Shown here piece by piece: positions 481 through 30,352 of a stretch of 64,000 nt of DNA. The translations under genes and the position numbers were made by a program. This DNA is from Spirochaetaceae bacterium (GTDB lineage: Bacteria; Spirochaetota; Spirochaetia; Treponematales; Rectinemataceae). The DNA is taken from assembly GCA_025358255.1 (NCBI GenBank), contig JANYKC010000060.1:1-64000 (forward strand), given 5' to 3'. Position 1 is the first letter of the stretch. The number at the start of each line of letters is the position of its first letter. The notes beneath the pieces are model-generated. The model was not told the DNA's origin, did no database searches, and saw nothing but the letters and a program-made list of their open reading frames with translations.

Positions 481-1631
481 TCAGGTCCCGGCGATCCCGG
501 CGCGGTCCGCTTTTTTCCTCTCCTTGTCTTCGTACATGAGGGCGTCGAGGCGCGCGATGAAGGAGGTGGCGTCGGCCGAAAGCCGCGGATCGAAGATTCC
601 TGAGCCGATGCTCAGGGCCAAGGTGTAGGGCCGGCCCGAGCCCTGATTGAAGGTATCGATCTGGCGCTTGAGCCGCTCAACCACCTCGGAAAGCCGTTGC
701 GTGTCGCCGAGCCCGACCACGATCACGAATTCATCACCTCCAAGACGAGCCACCATGTCATCGGACCGGACCACCGCTCCCAGGACCGTGGAGGCGTCCT
801 CGAGCGCCCGGTCGCCCATCTCGTGCCCGAATCTGTCGTTGATGCACTTGAACTCATCCAGGTCGACCAGGATTGCGCCGAAGCGCTGACCGCGTCGCGA
901 CGCCGCTATCCTTGCCTCAAGCTCCTCGTCCAGGCTCCGCCGATTGGCCGTGCCCGTGAGGTGGTCAGTGGAAGCCTGCGCCCGTTGGATATTGAAGGAG
1001 GCGATGAGGAGGAAGAGCGACATGGCAGGCCAGACCAGGACAAGGCCATAAAAAAGGCCTGGAAACCACCGGCGACCATGACGGGGATAGGGTAGAAAAG
1101 GAGGGAGAAGAAGGCCCTTCGGCTGACGAGGTGCCGGTTTGCCACGATGAGGATGACGGAGAGCAAGGCGAGCGCCAAGGCGACTGCCGCAAAGGCCGGG
1201 AAGCCAGGACCGCGAACGTAGCGGTTGCCGCCGTCGATCGTGAAAAGGAAGCCGGTGAAGGGCGAAACCAAGGCCGCGACGGCCATGAGCACAAAGGGAA
1301 TGGCGAGCCAAGGGCGGAGCTTCGCGCTGCGGACGGGATCACGGAAAAGCTGGAAATCGGCGTATTGAAGGAAGAGCAGCAGGGGAAGGGAATGGAAAAA
1401 ATAATAGGCGCCATTGGCGACGAAGAGGACAATTCGGGCGAGGTTCCCCGGTCTCCCGTCGAACAGCCAAGTCACCGAGTCGAAGACTATCATCGCCGCG
1501 GTGGCCAGGATGAGGCCGATGAAAACCGATACGCCGACGCTGTCCCGTTTTCTTCTCCTCTCCCCGTAGGCCACCATGGCCACGATGCAGAGGCACAGCA
1601 TGTTGATTTCCACGCGAAGGAGCTGTTCCAT
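481..1631 (-). pseudogene. Membrane diguanylate cyclase (GGDEF), interrupted by a -1 frameshift
   Basis: Two overlapping minus-strand ORFs make one protein. The N-terminal part (MEQLLRVEIN start, 1631) has about six membrane segments (MLCLCIVAMVAYG, VFIGLILATAAMIVF, LARIVLFVANGAYYFF and others). The C-terminal part in another frame has a complete GGDEF domain with DHLTGTANRRSLDEEL, the ARLGGDEF active-site loop and LDEFKCINDRFGHEMGD. The frames meet at a homopolymer (six A on the + strand, about 1050-1056). Adding one base restores GGFQAFFYGLVLVWPAMS and makes 481-1631 an exact multiple of three (383 aa). An intact form would make c-di-GMP at the inner membrane. The start is uncertain; MNRPSDERRLFF at 1712 is an alternative. 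The break may be a real mutation or a homopolymer sequencing error. Confidence 0.85.
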
Positions 1632-1723
1632 GATGAAGCAGAGAGCATATCCCTTGCGCTCGGGGAATGAAAGGGCAAAAAACAAGCGTCTTTCGTCGGA
1701 AGGGCGGTTCATGGGCGGCTTTT

Positions 1724-1821
1724 CTGACCCGGCAGCCCAAAAGCGGCGTCTGCCCGTAATTCCGGCCGGGAGCGAGGACCGGAACCAGGGGAGGGCAGCC
1801 ATTGTCCTGTTGCCGGGTCAG
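1724..1821. repeat. ~100-bp structured repeat, copy 1 (diverged)
   Basis: Bounded by inverted ends CTGACCCGGCA and TGCCGGGTCAG, with an internal hairpin (ttccgg...ccggaa). The same ends, size and central hairpin recur at 12064-12162 and 12752-12851. It lies between the 5' end of the diguanylate cyclase gene and the 3' end of the nitroreductase gene. The interior is diverged from the other two copies. Confidence 0.65.
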
Positions 1822-1828
1822 CACTGCC

Positions 1829-2428
1829 TCAGCGCAGGACCTTGAACCGTCCGTCCAGGGGCAGGAATTCCTTGGGTCCGGCGGCGGCGGTGGACTTGCC
1901 GAAGGGCATCTGTCCGGTGAGCTTCCAGCTCTCGGGAAGGCCTGCCTTCGCGCGCGCCCAGGAATCCACGAGGGGATTGTAGTGCTGGAGGCTTGCGCCC
2001 AATCCCTCGACCGCCAGGCTCGTCCAGACCATGTTCTGGAGCATGCCGGTCGCGTTGCCCGACCACACGGGGAAGTAGTCCTTGTAGGCGGCGTATTTCG
2101 CCATGAGGTCCTGGACAATGGCCTGGTCCTCGAAAAAGAGGACAGTGCCGTAGCCGCCCTTGAAAGCCGCGAGTTTTTGCTCGGTCTGGGGGAAAGCCTC
2201 GGCGGGCACCAGGGGGCGGAGGATCTCCAAGGTCGCGTCCCAGAACTGGTCATGGTTCTTCCCCAGGAGGAGCACTATGCGTCCGGCCTGGCTATTGAAA
2301 GGCGTAGGGCTGTGCTTAATGGCCTCGCCGAGGATCTCCTCGAGGCGCTTTTCGGAAATGGTCGATTCCTTGCTCAGGCTGTAGATGGTCCTGCGTGATT
2401 TGATTGCCTCGTAATAGTCATGTGCCAT
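1829..2428 (-). CDS. Nitroreductase-family oxidoreductase (Frm2/HBN1-like)
   Basis: A 199-residue FMN-type nitroreductase. YYEAIKSRRTIYSLSKES at the N-terminus and SPTPFNSQAGRIVLLLG match the subfamily that includes yeast Frm2/Hbn1 and bacterial relatives, which are usually about 200 aa. The start at 2428 (MAHDYYEA) has AAGGAG eight bases upstream; the longer ORF start at 2476 lies inside the promoter region and was rejected. It is divergent from the ArsR gene and shares its operator region, so it is probably repressed by that ArsR protein. The family reduces nitro or quinone compounds with NAD(P)H; the substrate here is unknown. Confidence 0.88.
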   Translation of the reverse strand: MAHDYYEAIKSRRTIYSLSKESTISEKRLEEILGEAIKHSPTPFNSQAGRIVLLLGKNHDQFWDATLEILRPLVPAEAFPQTEQKLAAFKGGYGTVLFFEDQAIVQDLMAKYAAYKDYFPVWSGNATGMLQNMVWTSLAVEGLGASLQHYNPLVDSWARAKAGLPESWKLTGQMPFGKSTAAAGPKEFLPLDGRFKVLR

Positions 2429-2446
2429 GATGTTCTCCTTGATTTT

Positions 2447-2521
2447 AATATAGTAATATTCTAATACAATAGTCAAATGATTATTTGACTATTTGACCAA
2501 ATACTGGATTCTCGCTATGCT
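2447..2521. promoter_or_regulatory. Divergent promoter with inverted-repeat ArsR operator
   Basis: A perfect inverted repeat AGTCAAAT-GATT-ATTTGACT (2471-2490) is followed by a third half-site (ATTTGAC, 2491-2497). On the minus strand, TTGACT (2476-2471) and TATATT (2452-2447), spaced 18 bp, would drive the nitroreductase, with the -35 box inside the operator. On the plus strand, TTGACC (2493-2498) and TATGCT (2516-2521), spaced 17 bp, would drive arsR. Repressor binding at the repeat should block both promoters. Inferred from sequence only. Confidence 0.7.
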
Positions 2522-2527
2522 AGTAGT

Positions 2528-2830
2528 ATGGACCTTCCAGAGCGAGCGAGAATTTTTGCGGCCTTGGCCGATCCCCTTCGCCTCCGCATTGTCGACCACC
2601 TTCGGGACAAGGAAGAGGCCTGTGGCAAGGAACTGGCCGCGATGCTCGGGGTAAGCGTCGCCCTCGTGAGCCACCACACCAGGCTTCTCGAGGATGCCGG
2701 ACTCATCACAAGGAGGAGGGAAGGCCAGTTCAGCCGATTTTCCCTTGTCCCAGAAAGGCTGGAAAGCCTCCTGCAAAGTCATGCGGCTCCAGTGGCCGAG
2801 GCCGGCGACACAATTATAATGGAAGGATGA
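2528..2830 (+). CDS. ArsR-family transcriptional regulator
   Basis: A 100-residue winged helix-turn-helix protein typical of ArsR/SmtB. ARIFAALADPLRLRIVDHL forms the first helices and MLGVSVALVSHHTRLLEDAGL the recognition helix. There is one Cys (EEACGKEL), at the position where the CxCxxC of ArsR would lie, but no full alpha3 metal site, so the signal may not be a metal. The -10 element ends six bases before the ATG, so the transcript may be leaderless; there is no convincing Shine-Dalgarno. The stop overlaps the start of the next ORF (ATGA, 2827-2830), which may couple their translation. Confidence 0.88.
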   Translation: MDLPERARIFAALADPLRLRIVDHLRDKEEACGKELAAMLGVSVALVSHHTRLLEDAGLITRRREGQFSRFSLVPERLESLLQSHAAPVAEAGDTIIMEG

Positions 2831-3237
2831 ACCAGCGAAATCTCCGCGCCTCGTCCTTCCTCGTCGGGATACTGTCCTCGGCTGTCCTGCTGGCGGCCCA
2901 AGTACAGATCCAGGGCCCTGCCGCGAACCAAGGGCAGGCAAAGGCCCTGCCCACCCTCGTCATCATCGAGCCCTACTGGGCCGGCATTGAAGGTCAAGCC
3001 GCCGGCATCGAAGGTCAAGCCGCCGGCATTGAAGGTCAAGCCGCCGGCATCGAAGGTCAAGCCGCCGGCATCGAGGATCAAGCCGCCGGCATTGAAGGTC
3101 AAGCCGCCGGCATTGAAGGTCAAGCCGCCGGCATCGAAGGTCAAGCCGCCGGCATCGAAGGTCAAGCCGCCGGCATCGAAGGTCAAGCCGCCGGCATCGA
3201 AGGTCAAGCCGCCGTCGCCGCCCTGAAAAAAGTCTAG
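2827..3237 (+). pseudogene. Amber-interrupted propeller/transglutaminase protein, N-terminal segment with 24-bp repeats
   Basis: Starts with a signal peptide (FLVGILSSAVLLAAQ), then a short unique piece (LPTLVIIEPYWAG), then about ten copies of an eight-residue repeat (AGIEGQAA), then VAALKKV and a TAG (3235-3237). The frame stays open after the TAG and continues through 3786 and then 6357 in the same phase, so this looks like the N-terminus of one long protein of about 1175 residues cut by two nonsense codons. Its start overlaps the arsR stop by four bases. It may be an independent short secreted repeat protein, but the phase and continuity favour the broken-gene reading. Confidence 0.6.
2981..3213. 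repeat. 24-bp in-frame tandem repeat (about 10 units)
   Basis: Units of gccggcatygaaggtcaa plus gcc encode AGIEGQAA. The copies are nearly identical; differences are mostly the third base of Ile (att/atc) and one GAG-GAT (ED) variant. The unit is a multiple of three, so copy-number change would lengthen the protein without shifting the frame. Confidence 0.9.
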
Positions 3238-15400: not shown

Positions 15401-17578
15401 ATGGGAACTGGACTTTCGCCCGCGAGGCTCAAGCGCGCCCGCGGTGGCTTTTACCTCTTCAACTGTTTCAACGCCGTCTCCTTCGTTCTCTTGTCGGGGA
15501 GCTTCATCACCCTCTTTGCCCTCCGCCTGGGCGCTTCCAACGGCCTCGTGGGACTTCTCAATTCCTTCGGCTATGTCACCTTCTTCTTCCTGCCCCTCGG
15601 GAAACGACTTGTGCGGCGCAGGCCCATCGTCGAGGTTTTCGGATGGGGCTGGATGTTCCGCTACTTCTCCATGGTTCCCGTCCTAGCGGCGCCGATCTTC
15701 GCCGCCAAGGGCAACATCGGCCTGGCCTTCGGCTGCATCGCGCTGGGCGTGGCCCTCTTCAACATGTTCCGAGGCATCGCCCTCATCGGCAACAACCCCG
15801 TCCTGGCCTCCCTCGCCGAGGGCAGGGACCGCGGTGCCTTCCTTGTCAATGTCCAGATCGTGAACAACCTGGCGGGCATGGGCATGAGCCTTGTCGTGGC
15901 CCTGGTCCTCGGGAAGGCGGCGGCGACCGGCCTTTACGGCGCCTTCATCGCCCTGGGCATCGCGACAGGCATAGTTGGCTCCATCCTCCTCCTCCGCACG
16001 CCGGAGCCCGAGGCCTATCGGCCCACCTCGGGGGTGGGCCTGTGGACGACGACACGCCAGGCCCTGAAGGAAAAGCCCTTCCGCTCGTTCTTCGCCGTCC
16101 TCATGTCCATATCCTTCATCGCAGGGATGGCCCGCTCCTTCCTCCCCGTCTACGCCAAGGAAGTCTACGCCCAGGGTGACGACCTCGTGATGGCCTATTC
16201 CCTCATCGCAAGCCTCGGCGCCGTGGTCATGGGCCTCCTCACCCGGCTCCTCGTGGACAGGCTCGGCGCCAAGCCCCTGTACTTCATCTTCACGGCCGTC
16301 GCGGCCCTTTCCCTCATCCCCGCCATCGTCACCCCTGCCCTCGCCTCCGCCGCCGCTGTGATCGGCTTCCTCGGTGCCTTCAACTTCCTCACCTCCTTCG
16401 GCCTGGCGGGCGAGGAGAATGCGGGGCAGACCTACTATTTCGCCCTTGTGCCAAAAGAGCGGAACATGGACCTCTCGGTGGTCTACTACCTGGTGTTCGG
16501 CATCGGCGGCGCCGCGGGATCGGGCGCCGCGGGCGTCGTCCTCGAGTTCCTCCATGGGGCCGGCTTCGGGATCGCCATGTCCTGGCGGATATTCTTCGGG
16601 GCGCTTTTTGTCGGCCTTGTCCTGGCCCTCCTCGGGATCGGACGCCTCGTGCGCCTCGGCTCCGCGAGCGTGAGGGAATCCCTCGGCGTCATCTTCTCGT
16701 TGCGCGACCTGCGGGTCTTCGACCTTCTCCAGCAGCTGGACCGCAGCGCGAGCTCTGACGAGGAGGTGCGCCTCATCCATGCGATCGGCAGCTCCGCCTC
16801 GCCGCGGAGCCAGCGCGGGCTCCTGGGCTACCTGGCTTCACCCCGTTTCGAGGTCAGGGTGGAGGCCCTCCTGGCCCTCGAGAACATCGACAGCCTGAAG
16901 CCGGAGATCCTGGCGGCCCTGGCGATGGAGGTCGAGCGCAACCCCTTCACGACCGCCTATCTTGCCGCCCGCATCCTTGGGAAGCAGGGCGCGAGCGAAT
17001 ACCTCCCGGTCCTCAGGGCAGCCCTCCCCGCGCAGGACTACATGCTCCAGGGAGCGGCCATGGTCGCGCTGGCGCGCCTCGGGGACAAGTCCGCCCTTCG
17101 CGACATCGAGGATATCCTCGTGGATACGAAGATCCCCCGCGTGCGCATCCAGGCGGCCTTCTCCCTCGAGCTCCTCGGGGACAGGGATTCGGTGCCCGCC
17201 CTCGTGTCCTGCCTGCGCCGCGAAGACCCGCCGGCCTTTGTCTCCGACGAGCTCGTCCTGGCCGTGGCCGACATCCTCGGTCTCATGGATTCCTTCTATC
17301 CCCTCTACGCGGCCTTCCTCAGGAGCGAAACCGAGGGCATAGCGATGCTGGAGGACCTTGCGCTGGCAAGGAAACTAGACGACGGGTACCGCTCTGCCCT
17401 CGAGGGCATCCTCGCGGAACCGCCCCAGGGGGCGGAGATGGGGAGACTCGTCATGGCGACGGGTGCCGATCCGGGGGTGGAAATCGTCCTGGCCGAGGCG
17501 GCTCTGGACGGAAGCCTTGGCTACCGCGGCTTCCGCTTTTTCATAGCCGCCTACGCGGCCCTGGCCGGCAAGGCCTAG
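15401..17578 (+). CDS. MFS transporter fused to C-terminal HEAT-like repeats
   Basis: 725 residues. Residues 1-425 hold about twelve membrane helices of an MFS transporter (FNCFNAVSFVLLSGSFITLFAL, GLYGAFIALGIATGIVGSILL and others). From about residue 440 the protein is soluble and made of helical HEAT/PBS-lyase-like repeats (YLPVLRAALPAQDYMLQGAAMVALARLGDKSAL; VRIQAAFSLELLGDRDSVPALVSCL). This cytoplasmic repeat tail is not part of a normal MFS carrier (about 400 aa) and may bind a partner or regulate transport. The TAG stop lies at the left tip of the small inverted-repeat element. Substrate unknown. Confidence 0.88.
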   Translation: MGTGLSPARLKRARGGFYLFNCFNAVSFVLLSGSFITLFALRLGASNGLVGLLNSFGYVTFFFLPLGKRLVRRRPIVEVFGWGWMFRYFSMVPVLAAPIFAAKGNIGLAFGCIALGVALFNMFRGIALIGNNPVLASLAEGRDRGAFLVNVQIVNNLAGMGMSLVVALVLGKAAATGLYGAFIALGIATGIVGSILLLRTPEPEAYRPTSGVGLWTTTRQALKEKPFRSFFAVLMSISFIAGMARSFLPVYAKEVYAQGDDLVMAYSLIASLGAVVMGLLTRLLVDRLGAKPLYFIFTAVAALSLIPAIVTPALASAAAVIGFLGAFNFLTSFGLAGEENAGQTYYFALVPKERNMDLSVVYYLVFGIGGAAGSGAAGVVLEFLHGAGFGIAMSWRIFFGALFVGLVLALLGIGRLVRLGSASVRESLGVIFSLRDLRVFDLLQQLDRSASSDEEVRLIHAIGSSASPRSQRGLLGYLASPRFEVRVEALLALENIDSLKPEILAALAMEVERNPFTTAYLAARILGKQGASEYLPVLRAALPAQDYMLQGAAMVALARLGDKSALRDIEDILVDTKIPRVRIQAAFSLELLGDRDSVPALVSCLRREDPPAFVSDELVLAVADILGLMDSFYPLYAAFLRSETEGIAMLEDLALARKLDDGYRSALEGILAEPPQGAEMGRLVMATGADPGVEIVLAEAALDGSLGYRGFRFFIAAYAALAGKA

Positions 17579-17800
17579 GAGTCTGTCGGACCTTGGATTT
17601 TGCCAAGGCGAAGGCGATGCGCGAGGGAGAAACCGGCGAGGATTGAGGGCCATGCTACTCGTATGGCCCGGTTGACGAACCGGTATTGCGCCACGGAGCG
17701 CCGAGCCTGGGCAAAAAGCGCGTGCCTTGATTCCACTAAAAACGCTATCTCCGCGCTTTCGTCGGCCTTTCCCGGTGCGCTCCAAGGTTCGACAGACCCT
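17578..17800. mobile_element. 223-bp MITE-like element at a shared stop-codon site
   Basis: Terminal inverted repeats GGAGTCTGTCGGACCTTGG (17578-17596) and, reading inward from the right, AGGGTCTGTCGAACCTTGG (17800-17782), match at 16 of 19 bases. A TA dinucleotide lies outside each end (17576-17577, 17801-17802), as for IS630/Tc1-type insertion. The interior has two adjacent hairpins (GGGCCAT...ATGGCCC; CCGGTT-gacg-AACCGG) and no transposase. Removing the element and one TA gives ggccTAgtc, where both convergent genes would end in overlapping TAG codons. Confidence 0.7.
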
Positions 17801-18096
17801 TAGTCTTCCAGGTCGATCCTGCGCTTTTCCGGGCTGTGGCTGCGGCGCCAGAGCACGGCCACGTTCCCTATCACGCGGACAAGGTCGGCGCCAGTGCGCT
17901 CGGCCAGCTGGCTCGCCAGTTCGTGGCGCGATTCCTTGAAGTCGACGAAGCGCAGTTTCACGAGTTCGTGGTCGGTGAGGAGCTTGTCGAGCTGGGCTTC
18001 GATCCCCTCGCTCGCCCCGCCGCGGCCGAGATGGATCTGCGGTTCAAGATCCTGGGCAAGCCCGGCGAGCTTGCTCCTTTGTCGAGATGAAAGCAT
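17800..18096 (-). CDS. yhbY: YhbY family RNA-binding protein (CRM domain)
   Basis: 98 residues covering one CRS1/YhbY (CRM) domain: LSSRQRSKLAGLAQDLEPQIHLGRGGASEGIEAQL, then HELVKLRFVDFKESR and ERTGADLVRVIGNVAVLWR. The family binds the 50S precursor and helps ribosome assembly. The start MLSSRQ at 18096 has GGAG at good spacing; the ORF start at 18108 is less likely. Its TAA stop is formed at the right tip of the inverted-repeat element. Confidence 0.92.
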   Translation of the reverse strand: MLSSRQRSKLAGLAQDLEPQIHLGRGGASEGIEAQLDKLLTDHELVKLRFVDFKESRHELASQLAERTGADLVRVIGNVAVLWRRSHSPEKRRIDLED

Positions 18097-18116
18097 TCTG
18101 GTCTCCAAAAGCCCGG

Positions 18117-29255: not shown

Positions 29256-30185
29256 GTGGAAAACCGTTCTGCCCTGCTGCGCCAGGCCTCGATCATCGCC
29301 CTCGTGGGCAACGCCGTCCTGGCTGTGAGCAAGCTCGTCATCGGTTCCATCGCGGGAAGCCTCGCGGTCGTCTCCGACGGAGTCGATTCCTCGACGGATG
29401 TCGCCATAGCGATCATGACCCTGGTCATCGCGGCCGTCGTCGACAAGCCAGGGGACAAGGAACATCCCTACGGCCACGCGAGGGCGGAGACCATGGCCAC
29501 GACAGCCCTCGCCTTCATCGTCTTCTTCGCCGGCGCCCAGCTCCTCCTCCGGGCGGCGGGCGCCCTCATCGAAGGCGAGACACCCGCCATGCCGGGCATG
29601 CTCGCCATCTGGGTGACGGTCGCCTCCGTGATCGGAAAGCTCCTCCTAGCCTGGTCCCAGTTCGCCTTCGGCAAGCGCACGGGCTCGGCGATGCTCATAG
29701 CGAACGGAAAGAACATGCGCGGGGACGTGGTCACCTCGGTATCGGTCCTTGTGGGCCTCGCCATCACCTTCATCCTTGGCATCCCTGTCCTGGACAGGAT
29801 ACTTGCCCTCCTTGTCTCCCTCTGGATCATCAAGAACGCCTTGGGGATCTTCATGGAAGCCAACACGGAGCTCATGGACGGGACTTCCGACCGGGGGCCC
29901 TACGCCGCCGTCTTCACGGCTGTCGCCTCGATCGAGGGCGCGGGAAACCCGCATCGCACCCGGATCCGCAAGCTCGGCGCGCGTTTCATGATCGACCTGG
30001 ACATCGAGGTGGATCCGGACATGAAGGTCAGCGAAGCCCACGAGATCGCCCGAGGGGTCGAGTCCGCCATCAAGACCAACCTCCTCGAGGTCTACGACGT
30101 GATAGTCCACGTGGAACCCAGGGGCAACGACGAGGCCGAGGAGCGCTACGGCCTCAAGCCGGGGGACCACGAGGAGAAGGCCTAG
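29256..30185 (+). CDS. Cation diffusion facilitator (CDF) metal transporter
   Basis: 309 residues with six membrane helices and the CDF markers SLAVVSDGVDSSTDV in TM2, HPYGHARAETMA between TM2 and TM3, and NMRGDVVTS in TM5. A C-terminal cytoplasmic dimer domain follows (ARFMIDLDIEVDPDMKVSEAHEIA). It exports divalent metals (Zn2+, Fe2+, Mn2+ or similar) in exchange for protons. The GTG start has GGAGGG upstream. The TAG stop sits in sequence matching the tip of the 17.6-kb inverted-repeat element. Confidence 0.93.
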   Translation: MENRSALLRQASIIALVGNAVLAVSKLVIGSIAGSLAVVSDGVDSSTDVAIAIMTLVIAAVVDKPGDKEHPYGHARAETMATTALAFIVFFAGAQLLLRAAGALIEGETPAMPGMLAIWVTVASVIGKLLLAWSQFAFGKRTGSAMLIANGKNMRGDVVTSVSVLVGLAITFILGIPVLDRILALLVSLWIIKNALGIFMEANTELMDGTSDRGPYAAVFTAVASIEGAGNPHRTRIRKLGARFMIDLDIEVDPDMKVSEAHEIARGVESAIKTNLLEVYDVIVHVEPRGNDEAEERYGLKPGDHEEKA

Positions 30186-30352
30186 GAGTCTGTCGGACTT
30201 TGGACCGCAAAGGGAAAAAAGCTGTTGATCGGGCGAAATCGGGCATAAATGGAGCTAAATAGGCGCTTTTCGCCTGTTCTCGGCCCGCCGCGGCCATCCG
30301 CGGCCGCCGCCGCGGCCAGAGCCGCGGCCAGAGCCGCGGCGGCGGCGGCTCC
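30185..30352. repeat. Partial copy of the stop-codon MITE plus GC hairpin
   Basis: The left end GGAGTCTGTCGGACTTTGG matches 18 of 19 bases of the 17578 element and is also preceded by ggccTA. The matching right end is not clear; the minus-strand pgk gene ends TAGGAG, which fits only the outermost bases. The interior near pgk holds a very strong hairpin (GCCGCCGCCGCGGC...GCCGCGGCGGCGGC, 30303-30346) that may end transcription from both sides. Confidence 0.55.

Follow-up and report, generated by a model that had tools for sequence, protein, structure and literature searches.

In the genome of this Spirochaetaceae bacterium, an MFS transporter gene and yhbY converge on an inverted-repeat element, and each gene takes the last base of its stop codon from one tip of that element. 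This raises the questions of what the element is, which transposase moved it, and how it came to lie on two stop codons with both preserved. We analysed the window (the 64,000-nucleotide stretch of contig JANYKC010000060.1 that contains the locus) together with related genomes and genomes carrying the same tips. The relevant features are:

15401-17578, plus strand: MFS transporter gene with C-terminal HEAT repeats (MFS_1 domain match; the C-terminus agrees with relatives)
17576-17577: left flanking TA, belonging to the CTAG at 17575-17578 (sequence)
17578-17800: MITE, GGAG..CCCT, 223 bp, very probably IS1182-derived; long imperfect hairpin (sequence, fold, homology)
17578-17596, plus strand: left tip GGAGTCTGTCGGACCTTGG (sequence, recurrence)
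17578-17703: region of homology (74%) with the IS1182 element of G012 (L331, intact ORF), at its right end (alignment)
17782-17800, minus strand: right tip AGGGTCTGTCGAACCTTGG, with A in place of the initial G (sequence, recurrence)
17801-17802: right flanking TA (sequence)
17800-18108, minus strand: yhbY (CRS1_YhbY domain match)
30185-30294, plus strand: second copy, truncated (left 110 bp, 97% identical to the copy on contig C6) (sequence, alignment)

Anatomy of the element and its junctions

The junction reads ggcc-TAG-gagtctgtcggaccttgg ... ccaaggttcgacagaccc-TTA-gtcttcc. The MFS stop codon TAG occupies 17576-17578, and its G is the first base of the element tip. The yhbY stop is at 17802-17800 on the minus strand, where the last base comes from the other element end; it is TAA rather than TAG because the right tip starts with A instead of G. 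The first-pass annotation had described a MITE-like, TA-flanked inverted-repeat element of 223 bp whose tips give the third base of each stop (TAG for MFS, TAA for yhbY) and preserve both codons. From the sequence, this description of 17578-17800 is correct to the base, as is the arithmetic by which deletion of the element and one TA yields ggccTAgtc. An alternative reading is a 4-bp duplication (CTAG + 221 bp + TTAG). The TA reading (223 bp) and the CTAG duplication (221 bp) describe the identical sequence equally well.

Both genes are real, as indicated by their domain matches (MFS_1 plus HEAT repeats; CRS1_YhbY). The inverted-repeat structure is not a product of chance, because the tips recur elsewhere in the same genome and in many other genomes. 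The tips of the 223-bp element are inverted repeats with mismatches, and were missed by the repeat finder, whose seeds are exact matches of 9 bases. The fold of the element strand has an energy of -109 kcal/mol (z = -5.05 vs 200 shuffles). The element is a MITE: it is 223 bp long, has terminal inverted repeats, encodes no transposase and contains chance ORFs only, and many copies are dispersed in the same genome, in the congener and in other genomes.

The MFS-yhbY locus in related genomes

The convergent MFS-yhbY pair is old, given that, of 24 genomes in the family with a yhbY gene, about 20 have it. The element is absent from this site in about 20 relatives, and in several the gene ends are tight or overlapping. 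Overlaps of a few bases between the MFS and yhbY ends occur in the element-free loci L178, L180, L184, L185 and others.

In the sole congener, the spacer between the two genes consists of 544 bp of different sequence. Both congener genes have TAG stops, and yhbY ends in L-E-D-TAG, with L-E-D as in the window. This fits the ancestral TAG predicted for yhbY in the window. The congener spacer (L167) is itself an insertion, edged by long inverted repeats TGGCGGTGGGCCTGG / CCAGGCCCACCGCCA.

Distribution of the element

Further TA-flanked copies, expected from the first-pass annotation, are present in the same genome and in other genomes. Within the genome, the tips appear at window positions 17578 and 30185, and again at ends of contigs C6, C7 and C79. 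These copies were counted by search, and the number is a lower bound because several lie at contig ends. The tip at 30185 supplies the end of the TAG stop in a gene that, judged by its sequence, we take to be a CDF-like (cation-efflux) transporter, and a pgk-like gene converges on this copy from the opposite side. Between the truncated copy and the end of the pgk-like gene (30295-30351) are CCGCGGC-rich palindromic repeats. The congener has two intact copies of the element.

The family tip GGAGTCTGTCGGACTTTGG occurs in Spirochaetota, Zetaproteobacteria, Beta- and Gammaproteobacteria and Nitrospirota. A scan with the tip GAGTCTGTCGGACYTTGG, using one genome per species, returned Mariprofundaceae, Rhodanobacter, Extensimonas, Polaromonas, Nitrosomonas, Hydrogenophilales, Nitrospirota and other spirochaetes among the matches listed. 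The highest tip count (223) is in Extensimonas perlucida, and about 110 element copies are present in one Extensimonas genome. The median identity of the Extensimonas copies is 95%, indicating that they are recent. Element sizes are mostly 150-170 or 210-235 bp, and nearly all form long hairpins. Neither element nor tip had a match in plasmid and viral collections, and the family tip sequence is absent from the relevant literature in the library searched.

The stability of the hairpin (z = -5) and the position of the second window copy, likewise between convergent genes, could indicate that the element is retained as a bidirectional terminator or RNA-processing hairpin and that its placement on stop codons was selected. 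We consider this unlikely, as the U-tract pattern of a terminator was found on neither strand of the element, the relatives noted above manage without it at this site, and copies elsewhere are often away from gene ends.

The transposase partner

The partner suggested by the first-pass annotation was an IS630/Tc1-type transposase, which would mobilise the MITE with duplication of TA. TA flanks and a preference for CTAG are known for IS630 elements, and two DDE_3 matches are present in the window's genome. However, DDE_3 genes are missing from several MITE-rich genomes (G030, G031, G033, G041, G042 and G046), and none of the DDE_3 loci found is bordered by these tips. No element with an IS630 transposase and these tips was found, whereas IS1182 elements bearing them exist. 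An IS630/Tc1 origin is largely refuted, and we assign it a very low probability.

Instead, a search for DDE_Tnp_1 identified three tip-bordered elements in two Extensimonas genomes: L306 and L312 (1528 bp) and L316 (1570 bp). These have ends GCAGCCTGTCGGACTT / GGAGCCTGTCGGACTT and CTA on both sides. The Extensimonas transposases match the IS1182 model NF033551 at 384 and 370 bits (NCBIfam cutoff 270). Also identified, in the family to which the window belongs, were an IS1182 element with an intact ORF and tip CTAGGAGCCTGTCGG (G012) and a broken IS1182 copy with CTAG at both ends (G028). The window's own genome (G000) contains a 716-bp IS1182 relic on contig C36 (L334, 1294-2009) that has the same tips but is internally deleted, with a broken frame. 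The relic is 84% identical to the IS1182 of G012 and is likely kin of the element from which the MITE arose. Only relics were found in this assembly (94.98% complete), and no intact IS1182 transposase with these tips.

The tips are common to the MITEs and to autonomous IS1182 elements (L306, L312, L316, L331 and L332), and the similarity extends inward. Across positions 1-126, the window element is 74% identical to the right end of the IS1182 in G012 (E 3e-18), and other spirochaete MITEs match that IS1182 at 77-84% over 90-129 bp, so that subterminal homology to the IS1182 of the host group spans 74-84%. Because both tips and subterminal sequence match IS1182, we interpret the window MITE as an internally deleted IS1182 derivative.

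This agreement with IS1182 also bears on the idea of a REP/BIME-type repeat spread by a RAYT (Y1) transposase. The repeats are palindromic and extragenic, and Y1_Tnp genes are present in seven of eight MITE-bearing genomes. Yet among 20 Y1 loci scanned, a tip was nearby in only two, neither of which is bracketed by tips, and the sole Extensimonas Y1 gene has no tip within 1.5 kb. As no RAYT gene flanked by the repeat was found among them, we regard this origin as very improbable.

The target site

Joined flanks of Extensimonas perlucida elements were compared with sister Extensimonas species, and one element of a sister genome was compared in reverse. Thirteen empty sites align through the junction, with a net gain of the element plus 2 bp (TA). 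This bears out the proposed mode of insertion, in which element and TA are added to a CTAG-like target. The first-pass annotation had also predicted the empty site of the window copy. Clean empty sites do occur for the same tip family, in Extensimonas; the sequence ggccTAgtc itself is supported but was not seen directly at MFS-yhbY, because the spacer of the only congener is filled by other sequence.

None of the 13 empty sites reads CTAG. At nine of nine sites that keep C..G and have lost TA, exactly one base of the TA is changed (p = 1.5e-4). CTAG words outside elements are conserved between sister Extensimonas species in just 2 of 19 cases (from 26 raw, after 7 at element edges were left out by hand), compared with 58-86% for other 4-mers. 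The window contains 30 CTAG words vs 93 expected, a three-fold depletion. Given these three observations, the target of insertion is most simply CTAG, with CTAG decaying fast. The lack of CTAG at the empty sites themselves counts against our explanation and is probably a result of this fast turnover.

Because CTAG was absent from the empty sites, we also considered an element that carries its own TA and takes the place of two bases of the target. This was rejected, as each of the dinucleotides differs from TA at one base and CTAG words outside elements are just as poorly conserved. Flanks of the tips (n = 172) are CTA in 100 cases, CCA in 30 and CTG in 15; 42% are not CTA. Between the Extensimonas genomes G037 and G048 (L220-L269), CTAG turnover is striking, with about a tenth of sites conserved.

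One member of the IS1182 family is described as inserting differently. IS1272 / TnSha1 of staphylococci replace stem-loops, without duplication and without sequence preference (PMC5678879, PMC4923244). They share the transposase family and palindromic targets with the present elements but differ in lacking clean insertion into CTAG, and their replacement model counts against our explanation. By analogy, the window element may have replaced a target palindrome, perhaps an intergenic terminator of the kind often present at convergent gene ends, and the TA or CTAG would be part of the element's own ends. We think this improbable, since no stem-loop has been lost at any of the 13 empty sites, and an element-borne TA predicts arbitrary target bases, whereas all nine informative sites retain exactly one TA base. 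Thus, we favor clean insertion into CTAG, a mode that IS1182-type elements can evidently use, unlike the stem-loop replacement of IS1272.

Stop codons

Because the tips start with G and end with C, an insertion at C^TA^G leaves a CTAG on each side of the element. Therefore, TAG stops are preserved on both strands and each insertion makes two new targets. At L043, L085, L144 and L312, neighbouring elements meet at a TA that they share. Of 172 TA-flanked tips, 22 serve as the stop of a coding-like frame, vs 13 of 455 control CTAG sites (p = 7e-6). The enrichment is uneven, being strongest in spirochaetes and Nitrospirota; in the Mariprofundaceae set the tip is a stop in 1 of 50 cases, although GC3 discriminates coding frames only weakly there. 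The excess of tips as stops is probably a matter of survivorship. Landing on stop codons is best explained by the rarity of CTAG in genes and the loss of gene-breaking insertions, not by recognition of stop codons. The preservation of stops at MFS/yhbY is neat, yet follows from ordinary transposon behaviour: restoration of the target word by the tips is a simple reason for a harmless seat on stop codons.

More speculatively, this branch of IS1182 and its MITEs may use a self-renewing CTAG target, with a stop-codon niche as a strategy of mobile DNA in several phyla. We hold this as a tentative proposal that is rather more doubtful than not. If true, stops would be kept on either strand, and elements could stack and spread at gene ends at little cost.

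Proposed history and comparison with known elements

We are highly confident that the element is a MITE from an internally deleted IS1182 that moved in trans and landed on the CTAG of the overlapping MFS and yhbY TAG stops. This rests on direct observation of the anatomy, the copies, a partner with matching ends, homology to the IS1182 end and clean target sites in another genus. The MITE would have arisen from an IS1182-family insertion sequence through internal deletion, and we infer that an IS1182 transposase mobilised it in trans. The predicted target was a CTAG made by the overlapping TAG stops of the two convergent genes. Insertion would have added the element plus TA (or, equally, a 4-bp CTAG duplication), restoring CTAG at both junctions and, at an unchanged codon position, the TAG of each gene. 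The TAA of yhbY would then stem from a subsequent G-to-A mutation of the right tip.

The window element is a real, tidy example of an already known kind of element, and a widespread family of short repeats is now tied to an IS1182 partner. The Correia elements of Neisseria are IS630-type MITEs that are short and TA-flanked, with inverted repeats and strong hairpins; they resemble the window MITE in flanks and hairpin but differ in tips and transposase family. ISMac2-related IS1182 MITEs of Methanosarcina acetivorans are 160-169 bp long with IRs of 25-26 bp, one with 4-bp repeats (PMC3852290). They are likewise assigned to an IS1182 partner and are close in size to the 160-bp class of the present family; their host is archaeal, and the likeness is one of partner, size and repeats. 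ISPse1 of Paracoccus (IS1182 family; 1653 bp, 16-bp IRs, a reported 4-bp duplication; PMC3281130) is similar in size to the partner elements but, unlike the MITE, is autonomous. MITEPsy1 of Pseudomonas syringae, a short IS5-type MITE with CTAG or YTAA targets, has been shown to move (PMC3189936). Its CTAG target is like that of the window MITE, but the ends differ and its partner (ISPsy2) is of the IS5 family.

Long tip pairs (L067, L119) were considered as possible transposase carriers and rejected, as the L119 pair holds a different gene and no transposase; clustering of ORFs inside unpaired tips also revealed no transposase. In L119 (Mariprofundaceae), the two tips are 1.5 kb apart (1464-3003) and surround a Ca2+ exchanger-like gene, which looks as though it had split a MITE or been captured by one.
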